In this document: piece after piece, positions 28,532 to 57,549 of the stretch | Layout of the letters: every line of letters begins with the position of its first letter | Numbering within the stretch: position 1 is the first letter of the stretch | DNA from: Roseateles saccharophilus | GTDB taxonomy: Bacteria > Pseudomonadota > Gammaproteobacteria > Burkholderiales > Burkholderiaceae_C | DNA length: 64,000 bases | Assembly (NCBI RefSeq): GCF_004342485.1 | Contig: NZ_SMBU01000021.1 | Location: 1-64,000 of the forward strand | Direction of reading: 5' to 3' | Made by a program: the position numbers and the translations under genes | Notes under the pieces: model-generated | The model's input: the letters and a program-made list of their open reading frames with translations, nothing else | What the model was told of the DNA's origin: nothing | Databases searched by the model: none

Positions 28532-28585
28532 CTGAACATGATTTCAGGATCGCTTCAGGGAAAGTTCAGCCCCCGTCGATAGCGT
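28532..28585 (+). promoter_or_regulatory. TTCAG-box promoter 1 (PBP unit)
   Basis: CTGAA at 28532, then TTCAG at 28543, 28554 and 28565, each exactly 11 bp apart. The -10-like TAGCGT starts at 28580, 15 bp after the start of the last half-site. All four half-sites are perfect. This is the best copy of the six and drives the leader ORF and two PstS-like genes. Confidence 0.8.
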
Positions 28586-28638
28586 CCCGGTCAACGAATG
28601 CGGCGCCCATGCAGGCACCGCGTGATGCCGGAGACAAC

Positions 28639-28737
28639 ATGGTTGAACTGCGTTCTTCACGAGACGTGCATCGCACGCCGGCCTGGCCCCGGGTCGTTCC
28701 GGCGGCCACCCCTGCCTGCTGCAGCTGCCTGCCATGA
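28639..28737 (+). CDS. 32-residue leader peptide coupled to the first PBP gene
   Basis: ATG 28639 is preceded by GGAGACAAC, the same ribosome site used by the TonB receptor at 30942. The frame runs 32 codons and ends TPACCSCLP. Its TGA overlaps the ATG of the next gene (ATGA at 28734), the standard sign of translational coupling. Three cysteines close together could bind a metal ion. Leader peptides of this kind can control downstream translation; that role is inferred. Confidence 0.5.
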   Translation: MVELRSSRDVHRTPAWPRVVPAATPACCSCLP

Positions 28738-29792
28738 GGCCACTGCTTCATGGCCATCCGTCCCGGCGCACCTGCCTCGCGCTTGCCGGCGCCGGCCTGC
28801 TGCCCTGGCCTGCGCTCGCGGCCGGCACAGGCCATCCGCCCTATCGGCCGCAGGCCCCGGTCGAGGGCCTGATCCGCATCTGGGGGCATGGCAGCCGCGA
28901 GCGCTCGCCGGCCGGCGCACTGGTGGCCGCCTGGATCAAGGGCTTCCAGCACTTCCACCCGGCGATGCGATTCGAAGTCACGCTGCGCGGCGACTCGACC
29001 GCCATCGGCGGCCTTTACACCGGCGCGGCCGACATCGCGCTGATGGAGCGCCCGCCGATCGCCATCGAGCTCGACGGCTACCGCCCGATCTTCGGCCACG
29101 ATCCCTTCGGCGTCATCGTCGCCTCGGGCAGCCTCGACCACGCCGACCATGCGCCGGCGCCCGTCGTCTTCGTCCACCGGAGCAACCCGCTGACGCGGCT
29201 GAGCTTGCAGCAGCTAGACGCCGCAATCGGCGCGGACCACCGCCGCGGACACCCGCCGGTGAACACCTGGAAGGATCTCGGCGTCGACGGGCCGCTGCGC
29301 GATCGGCCGCTGGAGGTACTGACCTATGACATCGCCGGCGATCTGCCCCAGTTCATGCAGCAGGCGGTGATGGGCGGCAGCCAGAAATGGACCGGCCGCC
29401 TGCGCGAGTTCGGTACCCCGTCGACAACGGCGGATGAAGGTCGGGAGGCCGCCCGGCGCCTGATGCAGGCGCTGCAGCAGACACCCCATGCGCTGGCGCT
29501 GGCGACCTGGCCGGACCGGCTGCCTCAGGCCAGGGCGGTCGCGTTGTCGGCTGCCCTGCCCGCCCCCTTCCTGCTCCCGACGCGCGCGACCGTCTCCCAG
29601 CGCCGCTACCCGCTGGTGCGGGACCTGCAGGTCTTCGTCGAGCGCGCACCGGGCGGACCGCTGCAGGCGCCCGTGCGCGAATTCCTCGCCTATCTGCTGA
29701 GTGCGCCAGGCCAGCAGGCGATCGCCTCGGACGGCGGCTATTTCGCGCTGCCGGGCCAGGAAGCGGCCCGCATCAAGGAGACCCTCGCATGA
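28734..29792 (+). CDS. PstS-like periplasmic binding protein (PBP 1)
   Basis: A protein of 352 residues with an N-terminal export signal, possibly Tat-type (SRRTCLALAGAGLLPWPALA). The mature part starts VEGLIRIWGHGSRERSPAG and contains the family pattern of a long helix, HPAMRFEVTLRGDSTAIGGL, then VVFVHRSNPLTRLSLQQLDA and a C-terminal REFLAYLLSAPGQQAIASDG. It is the most divergent of the set: the usual WGxLGLxGEW segment reads WKDLGVDGPLRDRP. Members of this fold bind phosphate or other oxyanions, but here no pst transporter is present and the ligand is unknown. It is translationally coupled to a leader ORF and overlaps the next gene by four bases. Confidence 0.8.
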   Translation: MRPLLHGHPSRRTCLALAGAGLLPWPALAAGTGHPPYRPQAPVEGLIRIWGHGSRERSPAGALVAAWIKGFQHFHPAMRFEVTLRGDSTAIGGLYTGAADIALMERPPIAIELDGYRPIFGHDPFGVIVASGSLDHADHAPAPVVFVHRSNPLTRLSLQQLDAAIGADHRRGHPPVNTWKDLGVDGPLRDRPLEVLTYDIAGDLPQFMQQAVMGGSQKWTGRLREFGTPSTTADEGREAARRLMQALQQTPHALALATWPDRLPQARAVALSAALPAPFLLPTRATVSQRRYPLVRDLQVFVERAPGGPLQAPVREFLAYLLSAPGQQAIASDGGYFALPGQEAARIKETLA

Positions 29793-30832
29793 CTCAACAC
29801 GCGATGCGCTGCGTCGCAGCGCTGCTCGCCGGCTTCGCCCTGTCGACCGCCAGGGCGGGCGACGAGCCGGATTACCTGAGGGATCTGCAGCCCTATCGGG
29901 CCCAGGCTGCCGTCGCCGGCACGATCCGCGTCTGGGGCAACCCCTATATCCCGGAGCTGGTCCAGGCCTGGGAGGACGGCTTTCGCAAGCATCACCCCGG
30001 CATCGGCTTCGTGACGCGGCTCAAGGGCACCGAGGCCGCCATGGCCGGGCTGTATGCGGACATCGCGGACGTCGTCTTCATCGGCCGCGAGCCCTACCGG
30101 CCGGAGCTGCGCGCCTTCGAGGACTGGTTCGGCTACCCGGCCACCGGCATCAAGATCACGTCGGGCAGCTATGCGACGCAGCACAAGACCTTCGCGCTGA
30201 TGGTCTATGTACACAAGGACAACCCGCTGGCCGGCATGACGCTGGCACAGCTCGACGCGATCTACGGCGCCGAGCGCCGGCGCGGCGCACCGGGGCCCAT
30301 CCGCACCTGGGGCCAGCTCGGCCTGAAGGGCGACTGGGCCGACCGCCCCATCCATGTCTATGGCTACAACTTCGACACCGGCATGGCCGGCTTCTTCCGC
30401 CTCGCGGTCATGCGGGACAGCGACCGCTGGAACCCCGAACTGAAAGACTTCGACAACGGGCACAGGCCGACGGGCGAGGTCATCAACGCCGGCACCTACA
30501 TCCTCGATGCCGTGGCTCATGACCCGGCGGGCATCGGCTTCGCCAACGTGCTGTTCGAGAACCCCGGCGTGCGCCGCATCGGCCTGGCCGAGAGCGAGGG
30601 TCAGCCCTGGGTCGAGCCCACGAAGCAAAACGCCTGGCTCAGGCGTTGGCCGCTGACCCGCTACAGCACGGCCTTCATCAACCGCCGTCCCGGGCAGCCG
30701 GTCGACCCCAAGGTGCGCGAATTCCTGCGCTACATCCTGAGCCGCGACGGCATGCATGCCATCGTCGAAGACGCCGCCTTTCTGCCGCTCGACGCAACGA
30801 CGCTGCTGCAGCAACTGCAGCAGCTCGATTGA
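29789..30832 (+). CDS. PstS-like periplasmic binding protein (PBP 2)
   Basis: A protein of 347 residues with a signal peptide ending about STARAGDE. IRVWGNPYIPELVQAWEDGF opens the fold, followed by LKGTEAAMAGLYADIADVVF, VYVHKDNPLAGMTLAQLD, the segment RTWGQLGLKGDWADRPI and the C-terminal VREFLRYILSRDGMHAIVED. It overlaps PBP 1 by ATGA, so the two are one operon. The tandem of two such proteins in one unit suggests either two related ligands or a donor-acceptor relay. Ligand unknown. Confidence 0.85.
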   Translation: MTQHAMRCVAALLAGFALSTARAGDEPDYLRDLQPYRAQAAVAGTIRVWGNPYIPELVQAWEDGFRKHHPGIGFVTRLKGTEAAMAGLYADIADVVFIGREPYRPELRAFEDWFGYPATGIKITSGSYATQHKTFALMVYVHKDNPLAGMTLAQLDAIYGAERRRGAPGPIRTWGQLGLKGDWADRPIHVYGYNFDTGMAGFFRLAVMRDSDRWNPELKDFDNGHRPTGEVINAGTYILDAVAHDPAGIGFANVLFENPGVRRIGLAESEGQPWVEPTKQNAWLRRWPLTRYSTAFINRRPGQPVDPKVREFLRYILSRDGMHAIVEDAAFLPLDATTLLQQLQQLD

Positions 30833-30842
30833 GCGATGCGGC

Positions 30843-30896
30843 CTGAATGCTCATTAATCTGCAGTTCACTCCCGGTTTAGGGTGGGCGCCTAGTCT
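30843..30896 (+). promoter_or_regulatory. TTCAG-box promoter 2 (TonB receptor unit)
   Basis: CTGAA at 30843 is followed at 11-bp steps by TTAAT (30854), TTCAC (30865) and TTTAG (30876); TAGTCT starts at 30891, again 15 bp after the start of the last half-site. The half-sites are weaker than at site 1 but the spacing is exact. The receptor start is 46 bp downstream. Confidence 0.65.
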
Positions 30897-30941
30897 CGAA
30901 CTGCTACCTGGCTTCATTTCATATTCAACAACGGAGACAAC

Positions 30942-33833
30942 ATGAAGCAACGCAGAACACAAAGTGCGATCGCCGCCAGCCTTCTCATGTCCGGGCTCGG
31001 TGCCCTGCTGGCGGCCCCTGCCGGTGCCGCCGAAAACGACGACAAGAGCAAGCTGGACACGGTCGTCGTCACCGGGTCAGCCGTCCCGATGACCACCAAG
31101 GATGCGGCGGCCGTCTCGGTCACCGAGATGAACCGCGAGACCATCGAGAAGGCGGGCGTCAGCACCGACGTGCTGGAGGTGCTGCGCAAGGGCGTGCCGA
31201 CGCTGCAAGGCCGCGGCAACGCCGGTGCCTCCAACGCCAACAACCTGAACCAGCGCACCGGCGGCGGCTCGCAGCTGCAGTTGCGCAACCTCGACACCCT
31301 GGTCCTGGTGAACGGCCGGCGCGTCGCCATCAGCGGCATCGCGGCGGTCGGTGGCAAGGCCTTCGTGAACTCGTCGCAGATCCCGCCCTCGGCCATCGAG
31401 CGCATCGAAGTGTTGTCCGACGGTTCCTCCGCCATCTACGGCTCCGACGCGATCGGCGGCGTCGTCAACATCATCCTGAAGTCAGACGCCAAGGGCTTCG
31501 ACGGCGGCGTGCGCTACGGCAGCGCCGACAACTACAACGAGTACGGCGCCTACATGACCTATGGCGCGAGGTTAGACGGCGCCCGCTTCACGGCATCGGT
31601 CAACGCCTCGCACACCGACCCGCTCTACCAGAACGAGCGCTCGTTCTCGACACCCATCACCGGCCGCGTCAGCATCGTGCCGGGCAGCATTGGCGGCGCC
31701 AGCCCGGCCCTCCTCGCCAGCGGCCAGGTGTCGCCGAGCAAGAACAATCCCACCGGCGCCGCGGCCACGGCGCCCTCGTTGGCGGCGCTCATCACCAACG
31801 GCACCTATCTGGCGTCGAGCACGGCGGCCAATGCCGCCACCTACGACCTGTCGCAGTTCCAGACGCTGATGCAGCAGCAGGACCAGGTCGCGATCAGCCT
31901 CAACGCCGTCGCCGACCTGATCGGCCGCAAGCTGAGCGCCTTTGGCGACCTGCAGCTGTCCGACAACCGCAGTTCCACGCGCATGCTGCCGGTCGCCACG
32001 ACGCTGACCGTGCCCAAGGGCGCTGCCTACGACCCGATCACGGCCAGCTTCGCCGGGGTCAACTTCGCCGACTGGGACCGCCCCCTCGAGCATCATTACG
32101 ACCAGGGCGCCGCGCGCGTGACTGCCGGCCTGCGCGGCAAGCTCGACAACGGCTTCGGCTGGGAAGCCGCCATCGTCCACAGCCAGAACGACCTGAAGTG
32201 GGCCATGGCCAACGTGCTGTTCAAGCCGAACATCCCGCTGGCCGTGCTGGGCGGCTACGACGCCAACGGCAATGCGGTGGCCGGCGGCAAGTTCAGCCGC
32301 GTCTACGCCAACTATTCGACGTCCGGCGCCCTCAGCCTCCAGCCCGCGCTCGACCCCTTCGCGCGCGCGGCCGGGCTCGATCCCGCTTCGCTGGCGAACC
32401 TGTACGGCACCGAGCGCGTCGACATGTCCAGCAGGCTCGACTCCTTCGATGCCTCGTTGAACGGCACGCTCGGCTCGCTGCCCGGTGGCAAGCCCGGCTT
32501 TGCGATCGGCGTGAGCACGCGGCGCGAAGCCCTTGCGGCCCACACCGACGACAACGCGCACAACACCGGCCCCGGCGCGCAGAGCTGGCTGGGCGGCCAG
32601 TTCTACGACGCGTTCTCGAAGAGCCGCCGCATCGACGCCGTGTTCGCCGAGGTGCGCGTGCCCATCACCGGGGAGTCCTGGAAGCTGCCCGGCTTCTCGG
32701 CGCTGGATCTCATCGCCGCCGCACGCTCCGAGAAATACAGCGACGCCGGCAGCTCGGTGTCGCCCAAGCTCGGCCTGCGCTGGCAGCCCGTCGACCAGAG
32801 CCTGACGGTCCGGGCCAGCGTCTCGAAATCCTTCACCGCGCCGACCCTCTATGCGGAATACGGCCCGACAGCCACGCGCCTGGTCGGTAACGGCGTCATC
32901 CTGAGCACCTTCGGCCTGAACAACCCGGGCCTGCAGGGCATGGACGGCAACAACCCCAACCTGCAGCCCAGCAAGGCGGACACCAAGTCGCTCAACCTGA
33001 CCTTCAGGCCGGATGCCGTGCCGGGCCTGTCGCTGTCGGCCGAGTACTCGAATGTCTCGCAGAAGGGCTACCCGGGCGGCATCGGTTTCGCCAACATCCT
33101 GCAGAGCGTGAACGCGCTGGGCAGTGCGTCGCCCTTTGCCGCCAATGTGGCCAAGGGTGCCTTCCCCGGTCAGCCGAGTGCGACGCCGTTCGCGAACCCG
33201 GGTGACCTGCTGGCCTATCTGCAGGCCGACCCCAACAACTCCCTGAATGTCTACGCGATCGACCAGTTCAGGAACCTGGGCGGCGTGAAGCTGAAGGCAT
33301 TCACGCTCAACGCGGAGTACGAATGGGAGACCGCGGCCGCCGGCACCTTCACGCTCGGCACGACCGGAACGATCTTCGATTCCTACAAGTTCCAGGCACT
33401 GCCCTCCCAGAAGTTCTACGAATATGCCGGCACGGTGACCAACGGTGGCACCGGCGTGCAGGGCACGTTGCCCAAGTACCGCTTCTACACAACGCTGGAC
33501 TGGCGCCAAGGGCCGTGGCTCGCGACCCTGGGCAACACCTATGTGTCGTCGGTGACCGACCTCGGGCCCGGCGGCATCGTCTACGAGACCAGCAAGACCT
33601 TGAAGCCCCTGCCCGTCAGCGCCTACATGAGCTGGGACCTGCGGCTGGCCTACAGCGGCGGCCGTGCCGGTTTCCTCGGCGTCAAGAGCTACACGCTGGC
33701 CCTGGGCGTCAACAACATCGGCAACCGGATGCCCCCGCTGGCCCCACAGGCCTACACGGACAACAACGCCGACATCTCCTCCTACTCGCCCCTCGGCCGC
33801 ATGGTCTACGTGACCGCGCAGGCCAAGTTCTGA
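30942..33833 (+). CDS. TonB-dependent outer-membrane receptor 1
   Basis: A protein of 963 residues with a signal peptide ending near GAAEN and a TonB-box-like start of the mature part (KLDTVVVTG). The plug domain shows LQLRNLDTLVLVNGRRVAIS, IPPSAIERIEVLSDGSSAIY and GSDAIGGVVNIILK, all classic. The C-terminus is a 22-strand-type barrel ending with phenylalanine (VTAQAKF). Such receptors import bulky ligands (metal chelates, sugars, vitamins) using TonB energy. It heads a unit with PBP 3, a COG4705 protein and cytochrome b561. The plug form is of the carbohydrate/unknown type rather than a clear siderophore type. Confidence 0.9.
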   Translation: MKQRRTQSAIAASLLMSGLGALLAAPAGAAENDDKSKLDTVVVTGSAVPMTTKDAAAVSVTEMNRETIEKAGVSTDVLEVLRKGVPTLQGRGNAGASNANNLNQRTGGGSQLQLRNLDTLVLVNGRRVAISGIAAVGGKAFVNSSQIPPSAIERIEVLSDGSSAIYGSDAIGGVVNIILKSDAKGFDGGVRYGSADNYNEYGAYMTYGARLDGARFTASVNASHTDPLYQNERSFSTPITGRVSIVPGSIGGASPALLASGQVSPSKNNPTGAAATAPSLAALITNGTYLASSTAANAATYDLSQFQTLMQQQDQVAISLNAVADLIGRKLSAFGDLQLSDNRSSTRMLPVATTLTVPKGAAYDPITASFAGVNFADWDRPLEHHYDQGAARVTAGLRGKLDNGFGWEAAIVHSQNDLKWAMANVLFKPNIPLAVLGGYDANGNAVAGGKFSRVYANYSTSGALSLQPALDPFARAAGLDPASLANLYGTERVDMSSRLDSFDASLNGTLGSLPGGKPGFAIGVSTRREALAAHTDDNAHNTGPGAQSWLGGQFYDAFSKSRRIDAVFAEVRVPITGESWKLPGFSALDLIAAARSEKYSDAGSSVSPKLGLRWQPVDQSLTVRASVSKSFTAPTLYAEYGPTATRLVGNGVILSTFGLNNPGLQGMDGNNPNLQPSKADTKSLNLTFRPDAVPGLSLSAEYSNVSQKGYPGGIGFANILQSVNALGSASPFAANVAKGAFPGQPSATPFANPGDLLAYLQADPNNSLNVYAIDQFRNLGGVKLKAFTLNAEYEWETAAAGTFTLGTTGTIFDSYKFQALPSQKFYEYAGTVTNGGTGVQGTLPKYRFYTTLDWRQGPWLATLGNTYVSSVTDLGPGGIVYETSKTLKPLPVSAYMSWDLRLAYSGGRAGFLGVKSYTLALGVNNIGNRMPPLAPQAYTDNNADISSYSPLGRMVYVTAQAKF

Positions 33834-33847
33834 GCGGCCGGTTCTCG

Positions 33848-34960
33848 ATGCCGATGAATCACCGACCGAAGCCCGGTCCCGCCACGATCGCAGCCGGCGC
33901 GGGGGCTCTCGCCCTGGGCCTGTGCAGCTTCGCGTGGGCCACCCCCACGCCACTGCCCCAGTACACGCCCGAGGCCAAGGTCTCGGGCGTCATCCGCAAC
34001 CACGGCTTCGGGCTGGGCGGTGTGCTCAAGGAATGGGAGCAGGCCTTCCAGAAGCACCACCCCGGCGTGACGTTCGAGGACAAGCTGCCGACCAGCGATG
34101 CCGCCATCCCCGCGCTCGTCACGGGAGTGACCGACCTTGCGCCCGATGGCGGGGAAGCCACGCTGACCGAGAACCTGGCCTTCTTCGAGGTCTACGGCTA
34201 CCCGCCGACCGAGATCACCGTGGCCTCGGGCGCCTTCGACGTGGACGGCAAGTCCAACGGGCCGGTCATCTTCGTGCACAAGGACAACCCCATCGCGTCC
34301 CTGAGCCTCAAGCAGCTCGACGGCATCTTCGGTGCCGCGCGCAGCGCCGGCATGCGCGGGTTCAAGTGGACGCCGTCCGACGGCCGCGGCGCCGAGCTGG
34401 ACATTCGCACCTGGGGGCAGCTGGGCCTGAAGGGCGAATGGGCCGACAAGCCCATCCAGACCTATGGGCACGCGCCGTCCGGGACCACACGCTTCTTCCA
34501 GTGGAAGGTGCTGGGCAACGGCGACAAGTGGAACCCCAACTACCGCGAGTACGTCGAGACCGGAAGCAAGATGATCGCCGACGAGGATCGCACCGAGCAG
34601 CGGCTGGGACTGCAGTCGATGTTGCGCAAGGAGCTGTCCCACGACCGCTACGGCATCGCCTGGACCGTGATGCCGCAGGCCAAGGGCGTCGCGGGCGTCA
34701 AGGCCATCGCGCTTTCGCCCTCGGAGGGCGCGGCGCCGGTGGCTCCCAGCAAGGAGAGCTTTCAGGAGCGCCGCTATCCGCTGGTGCGCAGCATCTACAT
34801 CTTCCTGAACCGCAAGCCCGGAACGCCCCTCGAACCCAGGCTGCGCGAGTTCCTGCGCTTCGTCCTGAGCCGGGAGGGCCAGCAGATCGTCGAGCGCAAC
34901 GGCAGCTACCTGCCATTGCCGGCCGAGATGGTGCAACAACAAAGACAGAAGCTGGATTGA
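33848..34960 (+). CDS. PstS-like periplasmic binding protein (PBP 3)
   Basis: A protein of 370 residues (ATG 33848; ATG 33854 is an alternative). The signal peptide ends about SFAWATP. Family segments: IRNHGFGLGGVLKEWEQAF, HHPGVTFEDKLPTSDAAIPA, VIFVHKDNPIASLSLKQLD, RTWGQLGLKGEWADKPI, APSGTTRFFQWKVLG (close to the SGTT ligand loop of PstS) and LREFLRFVLSREGQQIVERN. It lies 14 bp after the TonB receptor, so it is likely the periplasmic partner of that receptor. Ligand unknown. Confidence 0.85.
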   Translation: MPMNHRPKPGPATIAAGAGALALGLCSFAWATPTPLPQYTPEAKVSGVIRNHGFGLGGVLKEWEQAFQKHHPGVTFEDKLPTSDAAIPALVTGVTDLAPDGGEATLTENLAFFEVYGYPPTEITVASGAFDVDGKSNGPVIFVHKDNPIASLSLKQLDGIFGAARSAGMRGFKWTPSDGRGAELDIRTWGQLGLKGEWADKPIQTYGHAPSGTTRFFQWKVLGNGDKWNPNYREYVETGSKMIADEDRTEQRLGLQSMLRKELSHDRYGIAWTVMPQAKGVAGVKAIALSPSEGAAPVAPSKESFQERRYPLVRSIYIFLNRKPGTPLEPRLREFLRFVLSREGQQIVERNGSYLPLPAEMVQQQRQKLD

Positions 34961-34963
34961 GCG

Positions 34964-35737: not shown

Positions 35738-35783
35738 ATCGGCCACGCCCGTTCCGCCCAATCCGCATCCAAAGGAGAACGCC

Positions 35784-36353: not shown

Positions 36354-36461
36354 GCATCATGCCGATGGCCGCTCTCGGCCGAGGGCGCGGGCGCACTGCC
36401 GCACAATGAGCCATGCCGCACAAGCCCGTCCGAGGCTTGGCCGGCCGAAGGAGACAAGGCG

Positions 36462-37124
36462 ATGAAGATCCTGGTCATTGAAGATCAAGAACGGCTCGGG
36501 CGCTTCCTGCAGCAGGGCCTGTCCGAGTGCTCGTATACCGTGACCTGGGTGCGCAACTGCGCCGATGCCTCGGACGCCCTGGCCGAATCCAGCTACGACG
36601 CGATCGTGCTCGACCTGGGCCTGCCCGACGGCGACGGGCTCGACCTGCTGCGCCGCTGGCGCGCCAGCGGCTTCAAGGAGCCCGTGCTCATCCTCAGTGC
36701 CCGCGACGGCGTGCAGGACCGCGTCAAGGGCCTGGACCTCGGCGCGGACGACTATCTGCCCAAGCCATTCAGCCTGGAGGAACTGCTCGCGCGCGTGCGC
36801 TCCCTGGTGCGCCGCCAGTCCACCGTCAAGCAGGTGGTGTTCGAACATGCCGGCATCCGCCTGGACCTGCTCAGCCACACGGTGCAGATGAACGGCAAGC
36901 CCGTGGACCTGACCAGCCGTGAGTACGCGCTGCTCGAGGTCTTCATGCAGAACCAGGGCCGCATCCTGCCGCGCACGCTGATCTCCGAAAAGATCTGGTC
37001 CTCCCACTACGACGTCGACACCAACCTGCTCGACGTCTACATGAGCCGGCTGCGCGCCAAGCTCGAGGTCCCCGGCAAGCAGCTGTTCAAGACGGTGCGG
37101 GGCGTCGGCTACCAGTTCATCTGA
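36462..37124 (+). CDS. OmpR-family response regulator (CopR/CzcR-like), candidate TTCAG-box regulator
   Basis: A protein of 220 residues preceded by AAGGAGACAAGGCG. The receiver domain has MKILVIEDQERLGRFLQQ, phosphoacceptor aspartate in DAIVLDLGLPDGDG and lysine in DDYLPKPFSLEEL. The winged helix has LTSREYALLEVFMQNQGRIL and VRGVGYQFI. No kinase gene is adjacent; the only unpaired kinase in the window is at 56099-57460, at the far end of the same locus. OmpR-type proteins bind 11-bp-stepped direct repeats, exactly the form of the six TTCAG boxes. The third box begins over this gene's own stop codon. Confidence 0.9.
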   Translation: MKILVIEDQERLGRFLQQGLSECSYTVTWVRNCADASDALAESSYDAIVLDLGLPDGDGLDLLRRWRASGFKEPVLILSARDGVQDRVKGLDLGADDYLPKPFSLEELLARVRSLVRRQSTVKQVVFEHAGIRLDLLSHTVQMNGKPVDLTSREYALLEVFMQNQGRILPRTLISEKIWSSHYDVDTNLLDVYMSRLRAKLEVPGKQLFKTVRGVGYQFI

Positions 37125-37174
37125 AAACCGGTTCAGGTTTGCTAAAGCACGGGTTCAGGTTCCCGCCCTAGCAT
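37121..37174 (+). promoter_or_regulatory. TTCAG-box promoter 3 (RND operon)
   Basis: CTGAA at 37121 (overlapping the regulator stop), TTCAG at 37132, a weak TAAAG at 37143 and TTCAG at 37154; TAGCAT starts at 37169, 15 bp after the start of the last half-site. The adaptor gene starts 37 bp after it. Confidence 0.75.
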
Positions 37175-37210
37175 GGCTTCTCGCGGGGCGCCCGCCCGTT
37201 CGAGAGGCCG

Positions 37211-42317: not shown

Positions 42318-42319
42318 GT

Positions 42320-45043
42320 TCAAGCGACGAAGGCGCAGGCCGATGCCGGCGTGCGCGTGTCCATGTTGCGGCCCCGGTTGAGGTGGTCGTCCGCCTCGGT
42401 GGCGCAACCCAGCATGCGCGGGTACAGGAAGATCGTGAATGCGGCCGTTTCCAGCTCGCGTGCGCCGATGCGGCCCTGCGCCAGCGGCTGCCACAGCATC
42501 TTCAGCAGCAGCGCGGCGATCACCGCGTCGATGTTGACGCAGTAGACGTTGCGCGAGACGCCGGCGTCGAACAACTCCTGCACCAGCGCGCGGTAGAACT
42601 GGTGGAACACATTGGCCTCGCCGCGCTGCTCGAACAGCCTGGCGATGAAGACCTCGCGAGGGTCGTGGTTGACGGGCTTGTCCTTGAACACCGGGTGGTT
42701 CACGCCGGGCAGCTTGGCGATGTCCAGGCTGCCCGCGCCCTTCCTGTCGGCCTTGTACTGGGCATACCGGGCCACCGCGCGCCGGGCCATGGCCTGCAGG
42801 TCGAGGCCGTGGTCGACAGCCGCCGGGTCCGCGAGGCCGCTGCCCTCGAACTGCTCGCACAGGAAGGCGATGCCCTCGTAGCCATTGCCGCCATGCGCGT
42901 AGCCGGTGTGGCTCAGGAAGCCCAGCAAAGCCTTGTTGAGCTGCACGCGCCCGGGCTGCTCCGGGCCATCGGCAGAGACCGCACCCTTCGCGCCTTGCGC
43001 CGAGATGGCACCGGGGCCGTTGGTCAGCAGCAGGCCCACCAGCGTCTGGAACGCGAACAGATCGCCCTCGTCCGGCCGCGAGCCCAGCAGCGCGGCGAAG
43101 GCGATCTCGCCCAGGCTCGTGCGGCCCAGCAGCTCGGCGTCGGCGATGCCGCAGAAGGCGCCCGGCTCGTGCCGGCTCGCGTCGGCGGAAGCACCGATCA
43201 GCGTGCCGAACAGCTGCAGCCACCACGGGATGCTCTCGGCCGTGGCGCGCGAGATGCGCTTGCGCGACAGCGGCCCCCAGGCCAGCGTGGCGGAGATCGC
43301 GGCCAGCACGGCCGCTTCGGTCGGGTGGCCGGGCTGGCTGCGCAGCCAGCGCAGAAAGACCGAGCGTGCGCCGTGGGCCTGCACGCCCGCCAGCAGGCGC
43401 TCAGCCTGCGGGTCGGGGCGGTCGCTGCTCAGGCCGGCCAGGCCCCTGGCATCGACCTTGGCGATGTCGAAGCTCTCGGACAGCGACGCACCGAACTCGT
43501 TGCCCAGCCCCGCCGCGTGAAAGCCTTCGATCAGCCCGCGCAGCGCCTCGCGCGCCGCCTGCTGGCGCCTGGGGCCGACGATGGCGGCGGCCGCCGCCAG
43601 CACCGCATTGGGCGCGTTGCCCGCCTCGCGGCTGGCCTGGGCCGCAGCCAGCTCGGGCCTGCCGTGCAGGTTGACGTAGGCCGCGATGACAGGGGCGATC
43701 AGCCTGCGGTCGTTCTCGCCGCCCGCGTCGTGCAGCAGGGCCAGCGCCACGTTGGACTCCAGCGGCAGCGTGGCCGCCATCAGCATGCTGCTGCCGTGCA
43801 GGCTGCTGACCTGCGTCTTCGCGTCCATCTGCGACGCGCCGGAGGCGTCCTTCATGTTCTGGCGCGGCACCACGCCGCCGATCTGCCTGTTCAGCAACGC
43901 GATCTGCTCGCCATAGGGCGAGACGGCCTGCACCACCGGCAGGCGCAGCGCCTCGGGCAGGTCCAGCCCCTCGTCGGAGCCGAACCAGGGCTTGAGCGCC
44001 AGGCTGCCTTCGGGCGCGAAGTCGGGCATCGTCGCGTTGGTGCGCATCACGGCCGTCAACGCGGCGGGGATGTGGGCGATGTTGGTCACCAGCGCGCCCC
44101 TGGCCGAGAACACCGGGTTGTCGGGCGTGAAGATGCCGTCCACGCCGAACTTCTCCATGAACCAGCCTTCCTTGGCCTGGGCGTCGTCGTCGCCGCCGGC
44201 CATCGCGCCGGCGTGGCCCACGGCGCGCGTGAGCCTGCTCTTCCAGCGCCCTACAACGCAGGCCACCACCGGCTTGGTGAAGTGCGCGTCGTGCTCGTAG
44301 TAGCCACCGGGCTCGCAGTACAGCACCGCGGCCTTGCTGCGCGCATCGTTCGCCAGCGCGAACGCGAATTCCGGCGCGGCGTAGTGGATGTAGACATCCT
44401 TGCCGCTGGAGATCACCGTGGTCGTGCCCCAGCCGGCCATGCGCAGGTATTGCGCGATGGTGGTGGAGAAGCCGCCCGAGTTGGAGAAGATGGCGATGCT
44501 GCCGGGCTTGAGCGAATCGCCCGGTCTGTCGCCACCCAGGGCGCCGCCGATGCGCACCTGGTTCCAGGAATCGGCCGCGCCCAGGCCGTTGGCGCCGAAG
44601 ATGTCGATGCCGTGTTGCTGCCCCATCGCACGGATCTCGCGCGCATCGTGCACCGAGATCTTCTCGGTGATGATGAAGATCTTGCGCAGCTCGGGGTTCA
44701 CGCGGATCAGCTCGGCCACGCCGTCGCGCGCCGCGGATGGTGGCAGGTAGACCACGCCGCAGTTGAAGCGGTGCCCGGCGGCCAGCGCGTCGCGCACGTT
44801 GTTGTAGACGGGGATGTCGCCGACCGGGGTTGGCAGCACCGCCCCGCCCTTGCCGGGTGCGGTGCCGCAGACCACGTTGCCGCCCGAGTAGGCGTGGCTC
44901 ACCGGCGTAACCTCGCTGGACTCGCCGCCCAGGATGTTGAGCACGCAGACCCGGTCCTCGCGCGAGGCGACCTGCATCAGCGAGCTGATGCCGACGTGGT
45001 ATTTGAAATCGCCAACGCCCGGGCGTTGCAGGATGCTCTGCAT
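42320..45043 (-). CDS. aclA: ATP-citrate lyase-like large subunit, extended
   Basis: The protein has 907 residues; usual AclA-type subunits have about 610. Residues 1-320 form the CoA-binding and ligase part: IAIFSNSGGFSTTIAQYLRM, and AVGHAGAMAGG with the phosphohistidine. A citrate-synthase-like domain fills the C-terminal third, ending GVNHPVFKDKPVNHDPREVF. In the typical enzyme a DHGP motif lies here; this protein has TNGPGAIS at the matching place. About 250 extra residues lie between the two parts. The reaction would be ATP + CoA + a citrate-like acid to acyl-CoA + ketoacid, but the altered motif and insert make the substrate uncertain. The symbol is given for homology only. Confidence 0.75.
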   Translation of the reverse strand: MQSILQRPGVGDFKYHVGISSLMQVASREDRVCVLNILGGESSEVTPVSHAYSGGNVVCGTAPGKGGAVLPTPVGDIPVYNNVRDALAAGHRFNCGVVYLPPSAARDGVAELIRVNPELRKIFIITEKISVHDAREIRAMGQQHGIDIFGANGLGAADSWNQVRIGGALGGDRPGDSLKPGSIAIFSNSGGFSTTIAQYLRMAGWGTTTVISSGKDVYIHYAAPEFAFALANDARSKAAVLYCEPGGYYEHDAHFTKPVVACVVGRWKSRLTRAVGHAGAMAGGDDDAQAKEGWFMEKFGVDGIFTPDNPVFSARGALVTNIAHIPAALTAVMRTNATMPDFAPEGSLALKPWFGSDEGLDLPEALRLPVVQAVSPYGEQIALLNRQIGGVVPRQNMKDASGASQMDAKTQVSSLHGSSMLMAATLPLESNVALALLHDAGGENDRRLIAPVIAAYVNLHGRPELAAAQASREAGNAPNAVLAAAAAIVGPRRQQAAREALRGLIEGFHAAGLGNEFGASLSESFDIAKVDARGLAGLSSDRPDPQAERLLAGVQAHGARSVFLRWLRSQPGHPTEAAVLAAISATLAWGPLSRKRISRATAESIPWWLQLFGTLIGASADASRHEPGAFCGIADAELLGRTSLGEIAFAALLGSRPDEGDLFAFQTLVGLLLTNGPGAISAQGAKGAVSADGPEQPGRVQLNKALLGFLSHTGYAHGGNGYEGIAFLCEQFEGSGLADPAAVDHGLDLQAMARRAVARYAQYKADRKGAGSLDIAKLPGVNHPVFKDKPVNHDPREVFIARLFEQRGEANVFHQFYRALVQELFDAGVSRNVYCVNIDAVIAALLLKMLWQPLAQGRIGARELETAAFTIFLYPRMLGCATEADDHLNRGRNMDTRTPASACAFVA

Positions 45044-45061
45044 GTCGCTTCTCCTTCGTGG

Positions 45062-46339
45062 TCAGGCGACGTCGAGGCCGAGACGGGTCGCGATCTGCTG
45101 GCGGCCGCCGGCCTGCATCCAGGCATCCACCTGTTTCGCGAACTGGATCACCTCGCTCATGTCGGAGTCGAAGCCGAACAGCCGGTACGGCAGGCCCAGC
45201 GCGTCGCAGGTGTCGCGCAGCGCGCCCATGCCGCGCACCAGGTTCGGCCCGCCGCGGCCCAGCACCACGTACAGCGGCGTGGGGCCGTGCTGGCTGAAGT
45301 GCTCGCGCAGCGCATCCGCCATCGCGCGCAGCGTCTCGAAGATGTCGGTGTTGTTGCTCTTGCCGCCGATGATGAAGAGCACATTGGCCTGCCTCAGCCA
45401 GTGCCTGAAGCAGATGCGCGCCACCTCCTTCATCTTCCCGTAGGGCGGGTTGCCGCCGAAGTCGGAGCTGATGATGGCCGCGTCGCCCAGCATCTCGGTC
45501 ACCAGCGAATTGGCGCCGCCGCCGAAGGTGGGCGCCAGCACCGTGCCCTTGTCGTTGATGACGTAGACGTCGCTCTGGCCCTGGTGGGTGCGCAGCGTGT
45601 TGATCTCCTGCTCGAAGGCCGAGTAGTCGGCCGCGAACAGGTGGGCGGGCAGCTTCAGGCGCAGCCAGCGCGGGTCGTCACGGTCGAAGCCGCACTTGAA
45701 GTCGCAGGCCACGGGCGTGAGGCGGCCCTTGCCGTCGGGCCGCATGCGGATGGGGTTGAGCTCCAGCGTCGTCATGCCGAAGTTGTGGAACAGCTCCCAC
45801 AGCTTGGGCAGGTGCTGCACCAGCGGCGAAATGATCTCCCGGGGCGCGCCGATCTCGGTCAACGCATTCGCCACCACGAAGGACTTCAGGCCCGTCAGCG
45901 GGTCGAACGGCAGCTGGGCCACTTGCCGCTTGTCCAGCTCCTCGATGTCCATGCCGCCCATGTGCGTGAGCGTCATCGTCGGCGCGCGGAAGTGGGTGGA
46001 ATCGCTGATCGAGAAATACACCTCGTGCTCGGCCGGCACGCCGGCCTCGAAGGTCACGCCGTTGGCCTTGGCCCGGTTGTGGCCCACCTGGTGCTCGGCG
46101 AAGTACAGGCGCTCCTTCTCGGCCAGTGCGGTCTGCAGGTCACGCGCCCTGCCGAGCAGGCCGGCCTTGCCCTTCTTGCCGATGCCGCCCTTGAAGACCG
46201 GCTTGACGAACAGCAGGCCGTGCCTGTCGAGCATGGCCTTGATCTCTTCTTCGCTGGCGCCCGGGCCGAGCACCTCGGGCACCGGAAAGCCGACGAATTC
46301 GAGCAGCCGGGCACCGTGCTGCATGCCGGTAATTTGCAT
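45062..46339 (-). CDS. aclB: ATP-citrate lyase-like small (ATP-grasp) subunit
   Basis: A protein of 425 residues, close to the usual 400. The N-terminal ATP-grasp part has LLFVKPVFKGGIGKKGKAGL and FEAGVPAEHEVYFSISDSTH. The metal/ATP region TTLELNPIRM follows, and the C-terminal succinyl-CoA-synthetase-like part has INDKGTVLAPTFGGGANSLV and NVLFIIGGKSNNTDIFETLR, which forms the organic-acid pocket. It lies 18 bp before the large subunit. ATP-citrate lyase in bacteria is best known from the reductive TCA cycle, but no other genes of that cycle are here; the context points to breakdown of an imported organic acid. Confidence 0.8.
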   Translation of the reverse strand: MQITGMQHGARLLEFVGFPVPEVLGPGASEEEIKAMLDRHGLLFVKPVFKGGIGKKGKAGLLGRARDLQTALAEKERLYFAEHQVGHNRAKANGVTFEAGVPAEHEVYFSISDSTHFRAPTMTLTHMGGMDIEELDKRQVAQLPFDPLTGLKSFVVANALTEIGAPREIISPLVQHLPKLWELFHNFGMTTLELNPIRMRPDGKGRLTPVACDFKCGFDRDDPRWLRLKLPAHLFAADYSAFEQEINTLRTHQGQSDVYVINDKGTVLAPTFGGGANSLVTEMLGDAAIISSDFGGNPPYGKMKEVARICFRHWLRQANVLFIIGGKSNNTDIFETLRAMADALREHFSQHGPTPLYVVLGRGGPNLVRGMGALRDTCDALGLPYRLFGFDSDMSEVIQFAKQVDAWMQAGGRQQIATRLGLDVA

Positions 46340-46425
46340 GGGAATGCTCCTCGCCCCTGGGGGGCGCCCCTGCAGGACAGGGAGGCCGGCCCCGCGCCCT
46401 TGCGCGGGGCAAAACGGGCCGCTTG

Positions 46426-47481: not shown

Positions 47482-47519
47482 CGGTTTGTCTCCAAGGTTG
47501 ATGGGGTGGCGATGCCTGG

Positions 47520-47573
47520 AGGTTAGGGATCGCGACTGAAAACGTTCTGAACGGCGTCTGAAAGTGGGTTCAG
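47520..47573 (-). promoter_or_regulatory. TTCAG-box promoter 4 (PBP 5 - citrate-lyase-like unit)
   Basis: Read on the minus strand, CTGAA at 47573-47569 is followed at 11-bp steps by three perfect TTCAG half-sites (47562, 47551, 47540), and TAACCT starts at 47525, 15 bp after the start of the last half-site. The box overlaps the stop codon of the TonB receptor gene upstream. Confidence 0.8.
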
Positions 47574-49633: not shown

Positions 49634-49708
49634 CGTCGTCTCCGTTGTAGTTTTTGAAGCGGGCCTGTTCGTCGGGGAGCAGGCCAGCATCGGCGCGTCG
49701 GCCGTGCC

Positions 49709-50872: not shown

Positions 50873-50901
50873 CGTTTGTCTCCGTTATCGTTGTGGAGGG
50901 G

Positions 50902-52350
50902 TCAATTCAGCTTGGCCAGCTCTTCCCGCACTTCCCGCGCGGTCAGCGGGTAGTAGCCGGAGCAGGGAACGGGTTCCTGGCCCTGGCGGCTCAGCACATA
51001 GCGCAGAAATTCCTTGACCACGGCCGGGATGGGCCGGCCCGGCTGGCGGTCGAAGCGGATGTACATGTAGCGCGTCAGCGGGTACTGGCCGGTTGCGGCG
51101 CTCTCGGGCGTGCCGGCCACGGCGGGGCTGACCGCATCGCGCGCCAGCGGCACGGCCTTCAGGCCAGGCCCGCCATCCTCGAAGCCACCGAAGCCCATTG
51201 CTCCCGCGTCGGCTGCAATGGCCTTGGCGGTGTCCGCGACGGAAGCCTCGTGCACGCTCCCGGCCCAGGGCCCGCCGCGCAGCACCATGATCTGCATCGA
51301 CATCGCGTTGGGCGTCACATGCGGCGGCACATCCAGCGTGATGGGCCTGTCGGCCCATTCGCCGCCGAGGCCGAGCTGGCCCCAGCGCGTGATCGTCGGC
51401 GACTTGCCGAAGATGGCGGCGAGCTGCGCCAGCGTCAGTTGCTGGATCGGGTTGGCCGCGTTGACGAACACCGCCTGCGCGGTGGTGCGCTGCTGGGTGT
51501 CGAAGCCGCCGCGCGCGACGCGGATCTCCAGCGGCGCGCGCCCGCCGCGCAGCGTCGCGAACGCCGCGGCCTCGTCGGGCCAGAGCTCCCGGCCCATGGG
51601 CGCGATGTCCGTCTCGCCGGCCATCAGCGCATGGAAGCCGTTCAGGGTGCCGAGATGCTCCCAGCGATCGCCGGGGCGCACGCCGGGCTGCAGCGCGCGG
51701 AAGTCGCGCAGCCAGCCGTCCATCAGCGACTTCATGCCATCGCTGCCGACGCTGCTCAGCGCGCCGTGCACGCCGGCGTGCGCCCTGTAGACGGGCAGGC
51801 CGGGGTCGAGCGCCGCGCGGTAGCCGGCCAGCTTGGCCAGCTCCGCATCGGCTTCGCCGGCCGGCAGCGGCGCAAAGCCCGGCTGGCTGGCGACCAGCGC
51901 CTGGCCGGCCGGGCTGAGCGCGAAGCGCACGAAGCCGTCGACCGCCAGCGGCACCGGCGTGTCCGGGCGCCTGTTGAATGCCAGGAAGACCGGTTGGCCG
52001 TTCAACAGCGCGACGCGGGCCAGCTCCGGGGACTTCATCATGTCGCCGTGGAACTGGTGGGCGTAGGGCGCCAGCTCGATGGTGAGCGGCATGCGCGTCA
52101 TCGGTGCCACGTCGGCGCGCTCGAACATCAGCGCGCCGATGGCGGCCGCGTCGTCCACGTGCTGCCAGCGCGGGCCGCGAACGAAGCCGCCCTGCCCTTG
52201 CGCGAGGCCCCGCATCCAGGCGTCCATCAGCGGCGCCATCGCACCGGCGCCGATGCTGGAGACGGAGAGCTTCTTCTCGGCAGCAGGCGTTGCCGCCGAC
52301 GCGCCGCCGACCACCAGCGCCGCACAGAGGGGAATCAGCGCGAGCTTCAT
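50902..52350 (-). CDS. Two-domain PstS-like periplasmic binding protein (PBP 7)
   Basis: A protein of 482 residues from ATG 52350 (MKLALIPLCAALVVGGASA). The N-terminal domain (about 25-205) starts LSVSSIGAGAMAPLMDAWM and ends VRFALSPAGQALVASQPGF. The C-terminal domain restarts with LSSVGSDGMKSLMDGWLRDF and includes AVFVNAANPIQQLTLAQLAA, TRWGQLGLGGEWADRPITL and VKEFLRYVLSRQGQEPVPCS. The first domain lacks the WGxLGL segment and is shorter, so it may be a remnant half. The start overlaps the preceding gene by four bases. A natural tandem fusion of this fold is unusual. Confidence 0.82.
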   Translation of the reverse strand: MKLALIPLCAALVVGGASAATPAAEKKLSVSSIGAGAMAPLMDAWMRGLAQGQGGFVRGPRWQHVDDAAAIGALMFERADVAPMTRMPLTIELAPYAHQFHGDMMKSPELARVALLNGQPVFLAFNRRPDTPVPLAVDGFVRFALSPAGQALVASQPGFAPLPAGEADAELAKLAGYRAALDPGLPVYRAHAGVHGALSSVGSDGMKSLMDGWLRDFRALQPGVRPGDRWEHLGTLNGFHALMAGETDIAPMGRELWPDEAAAFATLRGGRAPLEIRVARGGFDTQQRTTAQAVFVNAANPIQQLTLAQLAAIFGKSPTITRWGQLGLGGEWADRPITLDVPPHVTPNAMSMQIMVLRGGPWAGSVHEASVADTAKAIAADAGAMGFGGFEDGGPGLKAVPLARDAVSPAVAGTPESAATGQYPLTRYMYIRFDRQPGRPIPAVVKEFLRYVLSRQGQEPVPCSGYYPLTAREVREELAKLN

Positions 52351-53216
52351 GGGTCGATCTCGTCGAGCGGCTTGGCGGGGTCGATGCGCGCCTGCAGGTC
52401 GTCGCGCAGCGCCATGGCGCGGGCCGTCAGCGCCTTGGTGTCTTCCTTGCCCGAATAGGCATAGCCGACGTTCATCGTGCCGATCGCAGCGCCGCTGCGG
52501 TCGTGCAGCGCCAGGTCGACGCCGAAGCGCTTGCCGCCCGAATAGACGCCGGTGTTGGGCTCCCTGCTGTCCATCACCTTGGCGTCGTCGGCGTCGGCCT
52601 TCTTGCCGTGGCGCCCGAAGGTTGAACCCAGCAGCACCAGCTCGCCATGGCTGCGCGCGCGCAGCGCCAGCACGGTCACGTCGGGGTGGCGCAGCAGCGC
52701 CTCGTCGACCAGCGTCTGCGCGCGGGACTTGGTCGTCACCAGCGGCTCGTAGGGATAGGGTTCCATCAGGTTGGCGACGTTCAGGATGCGGCGCGAGAGC
52801 CCGTCGCGGATCGCCGTCGCATTGCGCTCGAACTCGGCGCGCGAGCCGCCCACCGGCAGCCGCCACACCAGGCCCAGCGCGCCGACGGTGGCGCCGCCAA
52901 CGTCGCGCAGCGGCAGCTCCACCTCGATGCGCTTCTTGCCCTGATCCATCGCGACACGCGTCATGCCGGTGGCAACGACGTCGAGGTCATGCTCGTCCGC
53001 CGGGGCGCCGATGCGCCCGATGCTGGACGCGATGATGATGTTGCCGGCCGCCTTGGGCGACGCGGCATGCACCACCACCGCACGCAGGTCGGGGTACTGG
53101 GCCACGGTGCGATCCACCAGTTCCTGGGCATAGGTCTTCACCGGCGTCGGCTGCTGCGCCTGCGCCGTGAATGCGGCGGCCATCAGGGCCGCGGCCAAGA
53201 GGGATGTCTTGTTCAT
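52347..53216 (-). CDS. Periplasmic protein with two related unknown domains
   Basis: A protein of 289 residues with a signal peptide (MNKTSLLAAALMAAAFTAQA). It has two similar halves. The first starts YAQELVDRTVAQYPDLRAVV and includes ASSIGRIGAPADEHDLDVVA; the second starts RAQTLVDEALLRHPDVTVLA and includes GSTFGRHGKKADADDAKVMD. Both end in a beta segment (TVGALGLVWR, AIGTMNVGYAYSG). The protein at 57592-58116 carries one copy of the same domain. The pattern recalls PAS/Cache-like sensory folds, but I cannot name it. It sits between the ABC permease and PBP 7. Confidence 0.75.
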   Translation of the reverse strand: MNKTSLLAAALMAAAFTAQAQQPTPVKTYAQELVDRTVAQYPDLRAVVVHAASPKAAGNIIIASSIGRIGAPADEHDLDVVATGMTRVAMDQGKKRIEVELPLRDVGGATVGALGLVWRLPVGGSRAEFERNATAIRDGLSRRILNVANLMEPYPYEPLVTTKSRAQTLVDEALLRHPDVTVLALRARSHGELVLLGSTFGRHGKKADADDAKVMDSREPNTGVYSGGKRFGVDLALHDRSGAAIGTMNVGYAYSGKEDTKALTARAMALRDDLQARIDPAKPLDEIDP

Positions 53217-53246
53217 GGGTCTCCTCGCTTGGGTTCGAGTCCGGCT

Positions 53247-54955: not shown

Positions 54956-54957
54956 GA

Positions 54958-55959: not shown

Positions 55960-56024
55960 CGCAGTCTGTCTCCGGTTCGAGGTGTTGCTCGTGCGGCGTC
56001 CAATGCCGGACACGATGACTCGAA

Positions 56025-56078
56025 CCTTAGGAGCGCGACCTGACTGCTGGGTGAACTCTTCCTGAAAGTGCGTTCAGG
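56025..56078 (-). promoter_or_regulatory. TTCAG-box promoter 5 (ABC transporter unit)
   Basis: On the minus strand, CTGAA (56078-56074), then TTCAG (56067), TTCAC (56056) and GTCAG (56045) at exact 11-bp steps, and TAAGGT starting at 56030, 15 bp after the start of the last half-site. The binding-protein start codon is 66 bp downstream. Confidence 0.75.
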
Positions 56079-56098
56079 CGGATGCCGCGGCGCCGGCC

Positions 56099-57460
56099 TC
56101 AACCCGCCGAGGTCGGGATCTCGATGACGACGCGCAGGCCTCGCCCGACGTCGCGGCTGGTCGCCCAGATGCGGCCCTTGTGCATCGTCACGATGCTGCG
56201 CGAGATCGGCAGCCCCAGGCCGCTGCCGCGCGGGTCGGAACTCTCCGCGCCCAGGCGCACGAAGCGATCGAAGATGCGCTCGCAGTCTTCGGCGCTCAGG
56301 CCCGGGCCTTCGTCCACCAGGCTGATGCGCCACAGGCCGTCGGCCAGTGTCGAGGCGAGGCTGACGAGGCTGCCCCGCGGCGACACCTTGAGCGCGTTGG
56401 TCAGCACGTTCAGCAGCACCTGGCGGATGCGCTTGGCGTCGATGTCCACGCTGCCGTCGCCGTGGTGCGACCACTCGAAGCGCTTGCCGTCGTGCTCGGC
56501 GAGCGCGGCGGCGTCCTGCGCAAAGGCGCCCAGCAGTTGTTCGGGCCGCTGGGGCTTCAGGTCGACCAGCACGGCTCCTGCATCCGCGCGCGACAGGAAC
56601 AGCAGCTCGTCGATGATGCGATTGACGCGCCCGATCTCCTCGAGCTGCACGACGATGGACTCCTTCTGGACCGCCGAGAGGCCGTCGTCCACGAGCAGCC
56701 TCTCCATGTGCAGCCTGACGAGCGACAGCGGCGTCTTCAGCTCGTGCGAGGCCTCGGCAGCGAAGTGCCGGATTTCGGAAAACGATCGCTCCAACCGGTC
56801 GAACATCTGGTTCAGGAAACGCGCCAGCTGCGAGAGTTCGTCCTGCACATCGGCCACGGGAATGCGCTCGGCGAGGTTGTCGGAGCGGATGCGCAGCGCG
56901 GTCGCCTGGATCACGCGCACCGGCTTCAGGATGAGCTCGCTGAGCCCGTAGCCGATGACGACGCTCAACACGAGCGCCGTCCCCAGCAGGCCGAAGAAGA
57001 CGCGCCGGTAGCCTCCCATGAGGTCGAGCACGGGCGCCATCGGCGTTGCGATCAGGACGTCGAAGGGCTGCAGGCTGTACTCGCCGACGCGCACCTCGCC
57101 GAGGCCCTCGACCGTGATCGAGTAGGTCTTCTCGCCGATGAGGTCGGGAATGGCCATGCCGTGCAGGTTGTGCGACTTGAAGAAGCGGTTCGTCATCGGC
57201 CCGTGCATGTCCACGTAGAACATCGACGACGCCGATTCGGTCGCCTCGCGGATGCGCTCATCGATGACCTGGGGCGTCAGGCTCGCGTAGTCCCGCCCCA
57301 GCGTGGCCGCTAGGTGCTTGAACTGGGTCTCGGTCAGCTCGTCGAGCTGCTTCACGAGATAGCGCTCGAGCAGGTAGTGGCCCGCGATGAACAGGCAGGC
57401 CAGCGTCGCGGTCAGCGTGATGGCGTACCAGAGCGTGATGCGGCTGCCGATGGACTTCAT
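56099..57460 (-). CDS. Sensor histidine kinase (CusS/IrlS-like), candidate partner of the 36462 regulator
   Basis: A protein of 453 residues from ATG 57460 (MKSIGSRITLWYAITLTATL). Transmembrane helices lie at about 10-30 and 160-185 around a periplasmic domain of 130 residues. The H-box is FAAEASHELKTPLSLVRLHM, followed by NVLTNALKVSPRGS, VDEGPGLSAED and GSGLGLPISRSIV. The N-terminus resembles heavy-metal sensor kinases. No regulator gene is adjacent; the unpaired regulator of the locus is at 36462-37124. It is divergent from the unit at 57592 and is not itself clearly preceded by a TTCAG box. Confidence 0.9.
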   Translation of the reverse strand: MKSIGSRITLWYAITLTATLACLFIAGHYLLERYLVKQLDELTETQFKHLAATLGRDYASLTPQVIDERIREATESASSMFYVDMHGPMTNRFFKSHNLHGMAIPDLIGEKTYSITVEGLGEVRVGEYSLQPFDVLIATPMAPVLDLMGGYRRVFFGLLGTALVLSVVIGYGLSELILKPVRVIQATALRIRSDNLAERIPVADVQDELSQLARFLNQMFDRLERSFSEIRHFAAEASHELKTPLSLVRLHMERLLVDDGLSAVQKESIVVQLEEIGRVNRIIDELLFLSRADAGAVLVDLKPQRPEQLLGAFAQDAAALAEHDGKRFEWSHHGDGSVDIDAKRIRQVLLNVLTNALKVSPRGSLVSLASTLADGLWRISLVDEGPGLSAEDCERIFDRFVRLGAESSDPRGSGLGLPISRSIVTMHKGRIWATSRDVGRGLRVVIEIPTSAG

Positions 57461-57495
57461 GGCCGCGGATGGTAGTGAAACTGCGCTCACGCAGG

Positions 57496-57549
57496 CTGAA
57501 CGGTTTTTCAGAATCGAGACAGGCAGCGTACAGGGTGGGTTCCCAGAAT
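57496..57549 (+). promoter_or_regulatory. TTCAG-box promoter 6 (small protein - propeller unit)
   Basis: CTGAA at 57496, TTCAG at 57507, then weaker GACAG (57518) and TACAG (57529) at exact 11-bp steps; CAGAAT starts at 57544, 15 bp after the start of the last half-site. The first gene starts 43 bp after it. Confidence 0.65.

Follow-up and report, generated by a model that had tools for sequence, protein, structure and literature searches.

An inverted and direct TTCAG repeat precedes six predicted transcription units at one locus of Roseateles saccharophilus

Six boxes and the genes that follow them

The window analysed here is a stretch of 64,000 nucleotides of R. saccharophilus DNA (positions 1 to 64,000 of contig NZ_SMBU01000021.1). 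It carries six copies of a box with the consensus CTGAA-N6-TTCAG-N6-TTCAG-N6-TTCAG, which agree with its 20 fixed letters at 20, 20, 18, 18, 17 and 16 positions. An earlier interpretation made from the letters alone (the sequence-only reading) had claimed six such boxes, and all were found; the start of the fifth, given there as 56078, was off by one and lies at 56077.

The first box (20/20; 28532..28569, forward strand; -10 hexamer TAGCGT at 28580-28585) is located upstream of two PBP_like_2 genes (28734-29792 and 29789-30832). The second (16/20; 30843..30880, forward strand; TAGTCT at 30891-30896) precedes a TonB-dependent receptor gene (30942..33833, forward strand), followed by genes for a PBP (33842, a PBP_like_2 match in Pfam), a DUF347 protein (34964), a cytochrome b561 and the OmpR-family response regulator RR 36462 (36462..37124, forward strand). 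The third (18/20; 37121..37158, forward strand; TAGCAT at 37169-37174) overlaps the stop codon of the RR 36462 gene and is followed by an HlyD/RND efflux pair. A 20/20 box on the reverse strand (47536..47573; TAACCT at 47525-47520) overlaps the stop codon of a TonB-receptor gene and lies upstream of a PBP gene (46426) and a citryl-CoA-synthetase-like pair. The members of this pair, also on the reverse strand, are an ATP-grasp subunit (45062..46339) with a citrate-binding domain match and a succinyl/citryl-CoA-ligase-like protein (42320..45043) with a weak C-terminal citryl-CoA-lyase match. The fifth box (18/20; 56040..56077, reverse strand; TAAGGT at 56029-56024) precedes a unit with an NMT1-type ABC transporter, an exported protein and PBPs, which apparently reaches the TonB receptor at 47570. 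An exported-looking protein encoded at 52347..53216 on the reverse strand is predicted to have a tandem GAF/PAS-like fold, with weak TM-scores of about 0.3. The sixth box (17/20; 57496..57533, forward strand; CAGAAT at 57544-57549) is upstream of genes for a small exported protein (start at about 57592) and a beta-propeller protein (58139..59176, forward strand). It sits between this unit and the divergent histidine kinase gene HK 56099 (56099..57460, reverse strand). Start codons were judged by eye, as were unit boundaries from gene spacing. On that basis one transcription unit lies downstream of each box, as had been claimed, with predicted leaders of 30-142 nt.

The inverted repeat CTGAA-N6-TTCAG is made up of the first two half-sites; it is exact in five of the six boxes and imperfect at 30843. 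The third and fourth half-sites are direct and in phase at 11-bp steps. Both are perfect at 28532 and 47573, which are indeed the two copies with four perfect half-sites, and one or both are degenerate elsewhere. Among the six boxes the half-sites agree and the spacers differ. Positions 1, 2 and 6 are the strongest in the -10 hexamer of sigma70 promoters. In the sequence-only reading a -10 hexamer begins 15 bp from the first letter of the last half-site, and this is true of all six boxes (offset 48 from the box start). TAnnnT occurs at this offset in five boxes and nAnnnT in all six; at the other offsets from 38 to 74, TAnnnT was found in none of the six and nAnnnT never in three or more. The 16/20 box at 30843 is supported by its position before the TonB-receptor start (predicted leader 39 nt) and by its hexamer at the exact offset.

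Frequency of the box within and beyond the genome

Simulated windows of 64 kb (Markov-1, n = 400) contained on average 0.015 sites of at least 16/20 and none of at least 17/20, and a separate simulation of 40 windows gave no site of at least 16. From the Markov rate, about one 16/20 site per genome is expected by chance. The whole-genome scan was limited to three mismatches from the consensus (at least 17/20), a limit that box 30843 falls under. All five sites detected in the 5.77-Mb genome of R. saccharophilus lay within the locus, the confinement expected by the sequence-only reading, and the backwards control gave none.

When 60 genomes were scanned, seven sites were found in another genome of the genus, G014, six on contig C107 and one on contig C43. 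The remaining 58 genomes contained 18 sites in total, distributed over 14 genomes, and the background is therefore about 0.3 per genome; the backwards control produced one site across all 60. The other 18 of the 20 genus genomes had three single sites, in three genomes.

The response regulator and the histidine kinase

RR 36462 contains a receiver domain (PF00072) and a Trans_reg_C domain (PF00486), as in the OmpR/PhoB family. The nearest family models for the regulator and for HK 56099 are those of heavy-metal response regulators (TIGR01387) and sensors (TIGR01386), and both scores are below cut-off. For RR 36462 the TIGR01387 score, its best in NCBIfam, was 231.4 bits against a cut-off of 279.2, and it passed none of the best 25 of the 96 NCBIfam models matched. 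In a tree of 23 rows, RR 36462 fell in its own 7-row clade (95/92), and the CusR/HprR group (96/94) excluded it. The predicted structure of HK 56099 has a mean pLDDT of 71.

TctD was also considered as the regulator and was rejected: its model gave 171.5 bits, below seven other models and below its own cut-off. This candidate had come from the binding proteins together with tricarboxylate signs, and no motif letters were found in the available passages of the TctD paper.

The genes of RR 36462 and HK 56099 lie 19 kb apart. Among the 20 genus genomes (own included), an orthologue of the regulator (93% identity) is present in one other genome, G014, and the orthologue of the kinase (80%) likewise in G014 alone. 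The same two of the 20 genomes thus hold the regulator, the kinase and clustered boxes. A search of 398 phylum genomes at E 1e-68 returned an orthologue of RR 36462 in one, the own one; at most seven candidates per genome were scored, and misses are possible.

Related loci in the genus and in distant groups

Of the 22 genes that the window contains between 28734 and 59176, 14 have a relative within 80 kb of G014, at 69-93% identity. At that level the PBPs 28734, 29789 and 33842, both TonB receptors, the DUF347 protein 34964 and the CoA-ligase/ATP-grasp pair were not found. The same 80 kb contains seven boxes of at least 16/20, all with nAnnnT at offset 48. Behind one boxed stretch come genes for an NMT1 protein and for a reductase-like protein (PepSY_TM/NAD-binding). 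A separate 18/20 box in G014 precedes an operon with an RND permease (ACR_tran), beside a different response regulator, and has TATGCT at 49. Four orthologous pairs were compared. The half-sites are kept at 20, 19, 19 and 17 of 20 positions and the spacers at 17, 10, 15 and 7 of 18; the expected conservation of the boxes is seen, and a clear contrast between half-sites and spacers is seen in just two pairs, since the spacers are nearly as conserved in the other two.

A scan of genome contigs yielded 80 loci (1.35 Mb), in five of which (L009-L013) the regulator is 61-69% identical to RR 36462. In these five the next gene after the regulator encodes a relative of HK 56099 (37-47% identical; cut by the locus end in L013), which argues that RR 36462 and HK 56099 are a likely pair. 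The sphingomonad loci L009 and L010 have boxes with TTCAG letters on the reverse strand, at 9926 and 2435 in L009 and at 9916 in L010. The other three, Opitutae among them, have boxes with ATGAA/TTCAT letters (L011 at 2227, L012 at 878, L013 at 3138; 19/20 each). L017, with a regulator 43-44% identical, has a 20/20 box. The TTCAT pattern at 17 or more occurs at six sites over the 80 loci (control 0). At up to two mismatches, the six genomes of L009-L013 and L017 (22.9 Mb) contain nine sites (control 0); a site is present at the regulator locus in all six, and three sites lie elsewhere.

The -10 element is less regular in these loci. The hexamers at offset 48 are TAGCCA and TAAAGC in L009, both beginning with TA, GAAAAG in L010, TAGGCT in L011, CACAGT in L012, TAGGCT in L013 and CACAGT in L017. 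Two of the seven are exact TAnnnT, four have nAnnnT and three have neither.

The layout was also searched without reference to its letters in the region before the regulator, in 34 loci selected from the 80, with 60 shuffles each. The inverted layout beat all 60 shuffles in L009, L010 and L017. In the other 31 loci it never beat all 60, L026 and L037 coming nearest (3/60), and by this test the inverted layout is therefore not general to the regulator family. In L011-L013 the box is located elsewhere, ahead of the gene that opens the upstream gene run. A plain direct-repeat layout was rejected: in L009, L010 and L017, 11, 16 and 2 of 60 shuffles, respectively, reached its observed score.

Comparison with known operators

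The sequence-only reading had likened the boxes to the direct repeats bound by OmpR/PhoB-type regulators. The OmpR family and the 11-bp step stand, and the inverted first half-site means that the box is not a plain direct repeat. PmrA operators consist of direct half-sites at an 11-bp step. PhoB- and PmrA-type operators thus share the step with the box, but they differ in letters and have no inverted half-site. As had been noted, the half-site is unlike the Pho box: PhoB recognizes two (T)GTCAT boxes with a 5-nt spacer (PMC4513871, in part), and the box has TTCAG with an inverted first copy in place of GTCAT-type direct repeats.

The box has inverted 5-mers with N6, an adjoining in-phase direct half-site and a -10 element at a fixed distance, and as a predicted operator it is of the CusR/HprR/AgrR layout, in which an inverted repeat and in-phase direct half-sites take the place of the -35 element. 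The design is a known one with letters, TTCAG, that differ from those of known members. In E. coli MG1655 the cusC promoter (CusR) has ATGAC-N6-GTCAT-N6-GTCAC-N6-ATCAG followed by TAAAGT 49 from the box start, and the hiuH promoter (HprR) has three recognisable half-sites and TATCCT at 49. Like the present box, both have inverted 5-mers with N6 and further in-phase half-sites at 11-bp steps, the third and fourth at cusC and the third at hiuH. In contrast, their half-sites are GTCAT or GTAAT, their -10 hexamer lies one base further than 48, and RR 36462 belongs to a clade separate from CusR and HprR. The E. coli CusR regulon is described as very restricted in the part of PMC11195947 available, compared with six promoters here. 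Passages of a report on AgrR of Cupriavidus (PMC7380067) give its site as ATTACA-4-TGTAAT, with in-phase direct half-sites at some operators. Footprints and mutants described there indicate a role for the inverted as well as the direct half-sites, and mutating either lowers activation; AgrR is termed a type II activator, acting at promoters with no or a poor -35 element. CusR, CopR and CzcR of Pseudomonas share a common palindrome according to the same part of PMC11195947. From these excerpts, the operators of AgrR, CopR and PcoR and of the Pseudomonas regulators resemble the box in their inverted repeat, and AgrR also in its direct half-site and type II activation, but they have other letters and belong to silver, copper or zinc regulons. 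Since RR 36462 scores below the TIGR01387 cut-off and lies in its own clade, the layout seems to be common to more than one clade of regulators. Among the matches listed, titles and abstract openings of the open-licence literature contained neither a TTCAG box of such layout nor such a gene set.

Predicted regulation by one two-component system

As judged by sequence comparison, the six boxes are very probably operators of a single two-component system, HK 56099-57460 with RR 36462-37124. HK 56099-57460 is most likely the cognate kinase, rather than the kinase at 25681, and the entire cluster is probably turned on through a single sensor. The idea of one OmpR-family regulator for the entire locus, already put forward in the sequence-only reading, gains good support from the comparison: sites of at least 17/20 are confined to the locus, are clustered in the sole other genome of the 20 in the genus that bears the regulator, and recur beside its orthologues in other groups.

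We infer the following course of events. The kinase would phosphorylate RR 36462, which would bind as a symmetric dimer to the inverted pair CTGAA-N6-TTCAG. Further regulator monomers may line up on the in-phase direct half-sites, in 11-bp steps toward the promoter, and the array would end at the usual -35 position. There the last subunit could contact the sigma70 RNA polymerase sitting on the TAnnnT -10 element, as in class II activation without a -35 element. The expected outcome is joint induction of the six transcription units, one of which apparently contains the regulator gene itself.

Possible signal or substrate

Several genes hint at a carboxylate. The ATP-grasp/CoA-ligase pair has citryl-CoA synthetase 6hxq as its best match (E 1.5e-30 and 7e-35), and the citrate-binding domain match of the ATP-grasp subunit and a 2HCT carboxylate transporter in both sphingomonad loci favour the same reading. 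Both of these loci also have relatives of the exported proteins, the beta-propeller protein and the TonB receptor 30942 near the regulator. On the other side, a search of the other 19 genus genomes, G014 among them, found no relative of the ATP-grasp subunit 45062 at E 1e-40, and the subunit is therefore not a core member; the lack of a relative of this citrate-binding subunit in G014 makes the citrate reading less likely. It is weakened further by the boxed gene of L011-L013, which resembles YceI (L011 also gives an ABC-type permease match), and by one PstS-like protein examined, which resembles phosphate binders. As the signal or substrate, citrate or a carboxylate related to it, possibly in the form of a metal chelate, is thus a doubtful candidate, and the NMT1 and PepSY_TM/NAD-binding reductase-like proteins in the boxed stretch of G014 would also fit a metal chelate.

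These two proteins, the heavy-metal family models nearest to the regulator and kinase, and the boxes before RND genes, both at the efflux pair of the locus and at the ACR_tran operon of G014, would suit a metal-responsive regulon like CusRS/CopRS, serving efflux or metal-chelate uptake, in which the carboxylate signs are incidental. This explanation is possible, if rather unlikely. Both family scores fall short of their cut-offs, the RND permease of the boxed efflux pair gave 981-992 bits with the multidrug MdtB/MdtC models versus 340 with CusA/CzcA, and the regulon prominently features TonB receptors and binding proteins. Tentatively, and with more doubt than confidence, we suggest that a CusR-like two-component branch departed from classical metal resistance and today controls a seldom-found island for uptake of a carboxylate or metal-carboxylate chelate, its operator layout kept across phyla and the last letter of the half-site changing with the regulator clade.

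Besides TonB receptors and a beta-propeller, the island encodes six PstS-like binding proteins and exported proteins of a predicted GAF/PAS-like fold. A beta-propeller relative at 1e-60 was found in one of 300 order genomes, the own one, with at most seven candidates per genome scored and misses possible.

Other explanations of the boxes

The boxes might instead be bound by the second OmpR-family response regulator of the window, RR 25025 (25025-25684, QseB/PmrA-like), alone or jointly with RR 36462. RR 25025 shares 44-45% identity with RR 36462, G014 also carries an orthologue of it (85%), and its gene adjoins a weaker related site (15/20) at 24831 on the reverse strand. However, a kinase of its own is encoded beside it, and its gene is preceded by a TTAAG-type direct repeat, CTTAAG-N5-CTTAAT at 24940-24956, which we take to be a PmrA/QseB-like site. 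The tree groups it with QseB and BasR, without starred support. Its relatives in two other genomes, G005 (68%) and G010 (61%), occur where no box of at least 17 exists, and its G014 orthologue lies on another contig. A role of RR 25025 at the boxes is therefore improbable.

That the boxes reflect chance or shared ancestry, as promoter sequence duplicated along with paralogous genes and not selected as operators, is highly implausible: several boxed units do have paralogous PBP_like_2 genes and spacers are nearly as conserved as half-sites in two of the four orthologous pairs, but the six boxes agree in half-sites and differ in spacers, unrelated families are found in the boxed units, and the layout recurs beside regulator orthologues of other groups, in some of them with one letter altered (TTCAT).

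If RR 36462 and HK 56099 regulate all six boxes, the locus would be a compact regulon whose six promoters share one exact operator geometry, a good setting in which to study how an inverted dimer and direct repeats of an OmpR-family regulator replace the -35 element. A number of unexplained exported proteins would also be linked to a single signal. In L009 the GAF/PAS-like protein and the beta-propeller form one 642-aa frame. Orthologous regulators with TTCAG in one set and TTCAT in the other allow a natural comparison for a change of specificity; the half-site is TTCAG in four proteobacterial members and TTCAT in three others.

Sites near the response-regulator gene at 25025-25684

The OmpR-family response-regulator gene at 25025-25684 is preceded by a direct repeat, CTTAAG-N5-CTTAAT, at 24940-24956. 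A phased site matching 15 of the 20 fixed letters of the TTCAG box (half-sites TTAAG, TTCAG, CTCAG and TACAG) lies nearby on the minus strand at 24794-24831, and both are likely sites of this QseB/PmrA-like regulator. Two DUF347 membrane proteins (27175-27987 and 34964-35737) are encoded in the region, each near a different one of the two response-regulator genes.

TTCAG boxes in G014

In G014, another genome of the genus, an 18/20 box on the minus strand (contig C43, locus L123, 2646) lies upstream of an operon containing an RND permease and is divergent from another OmpR-family regulator; its -10 element, TATGCT, is at 49 from the box start. The G014 box at 59733 is followed downstream by a gene (locus L103, 2794-4854) for a reductase-like protein with PepSY_TM, NAD-binding and Fer2 domains.

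Binding proteins and exported proteins

A single locus encodes six PBP_like_2 (PstS-like) binding proteins (28734-30832, 33842-34960, 46426-47481, 49709-50872 and 50902-about 51900). The genes examined with Pfam yielded just one NMT1-type ABC transporter set and no phosphate-type permease.

In a sphingomonad MAG, the exported GAF/PAS-like protein (52347-53216, minus strand) and the beta-propeller (58139-59176) have relatives that appear as a single 642-aa open frame (locus L009, 7910-9838), which hints at joint action of the two.
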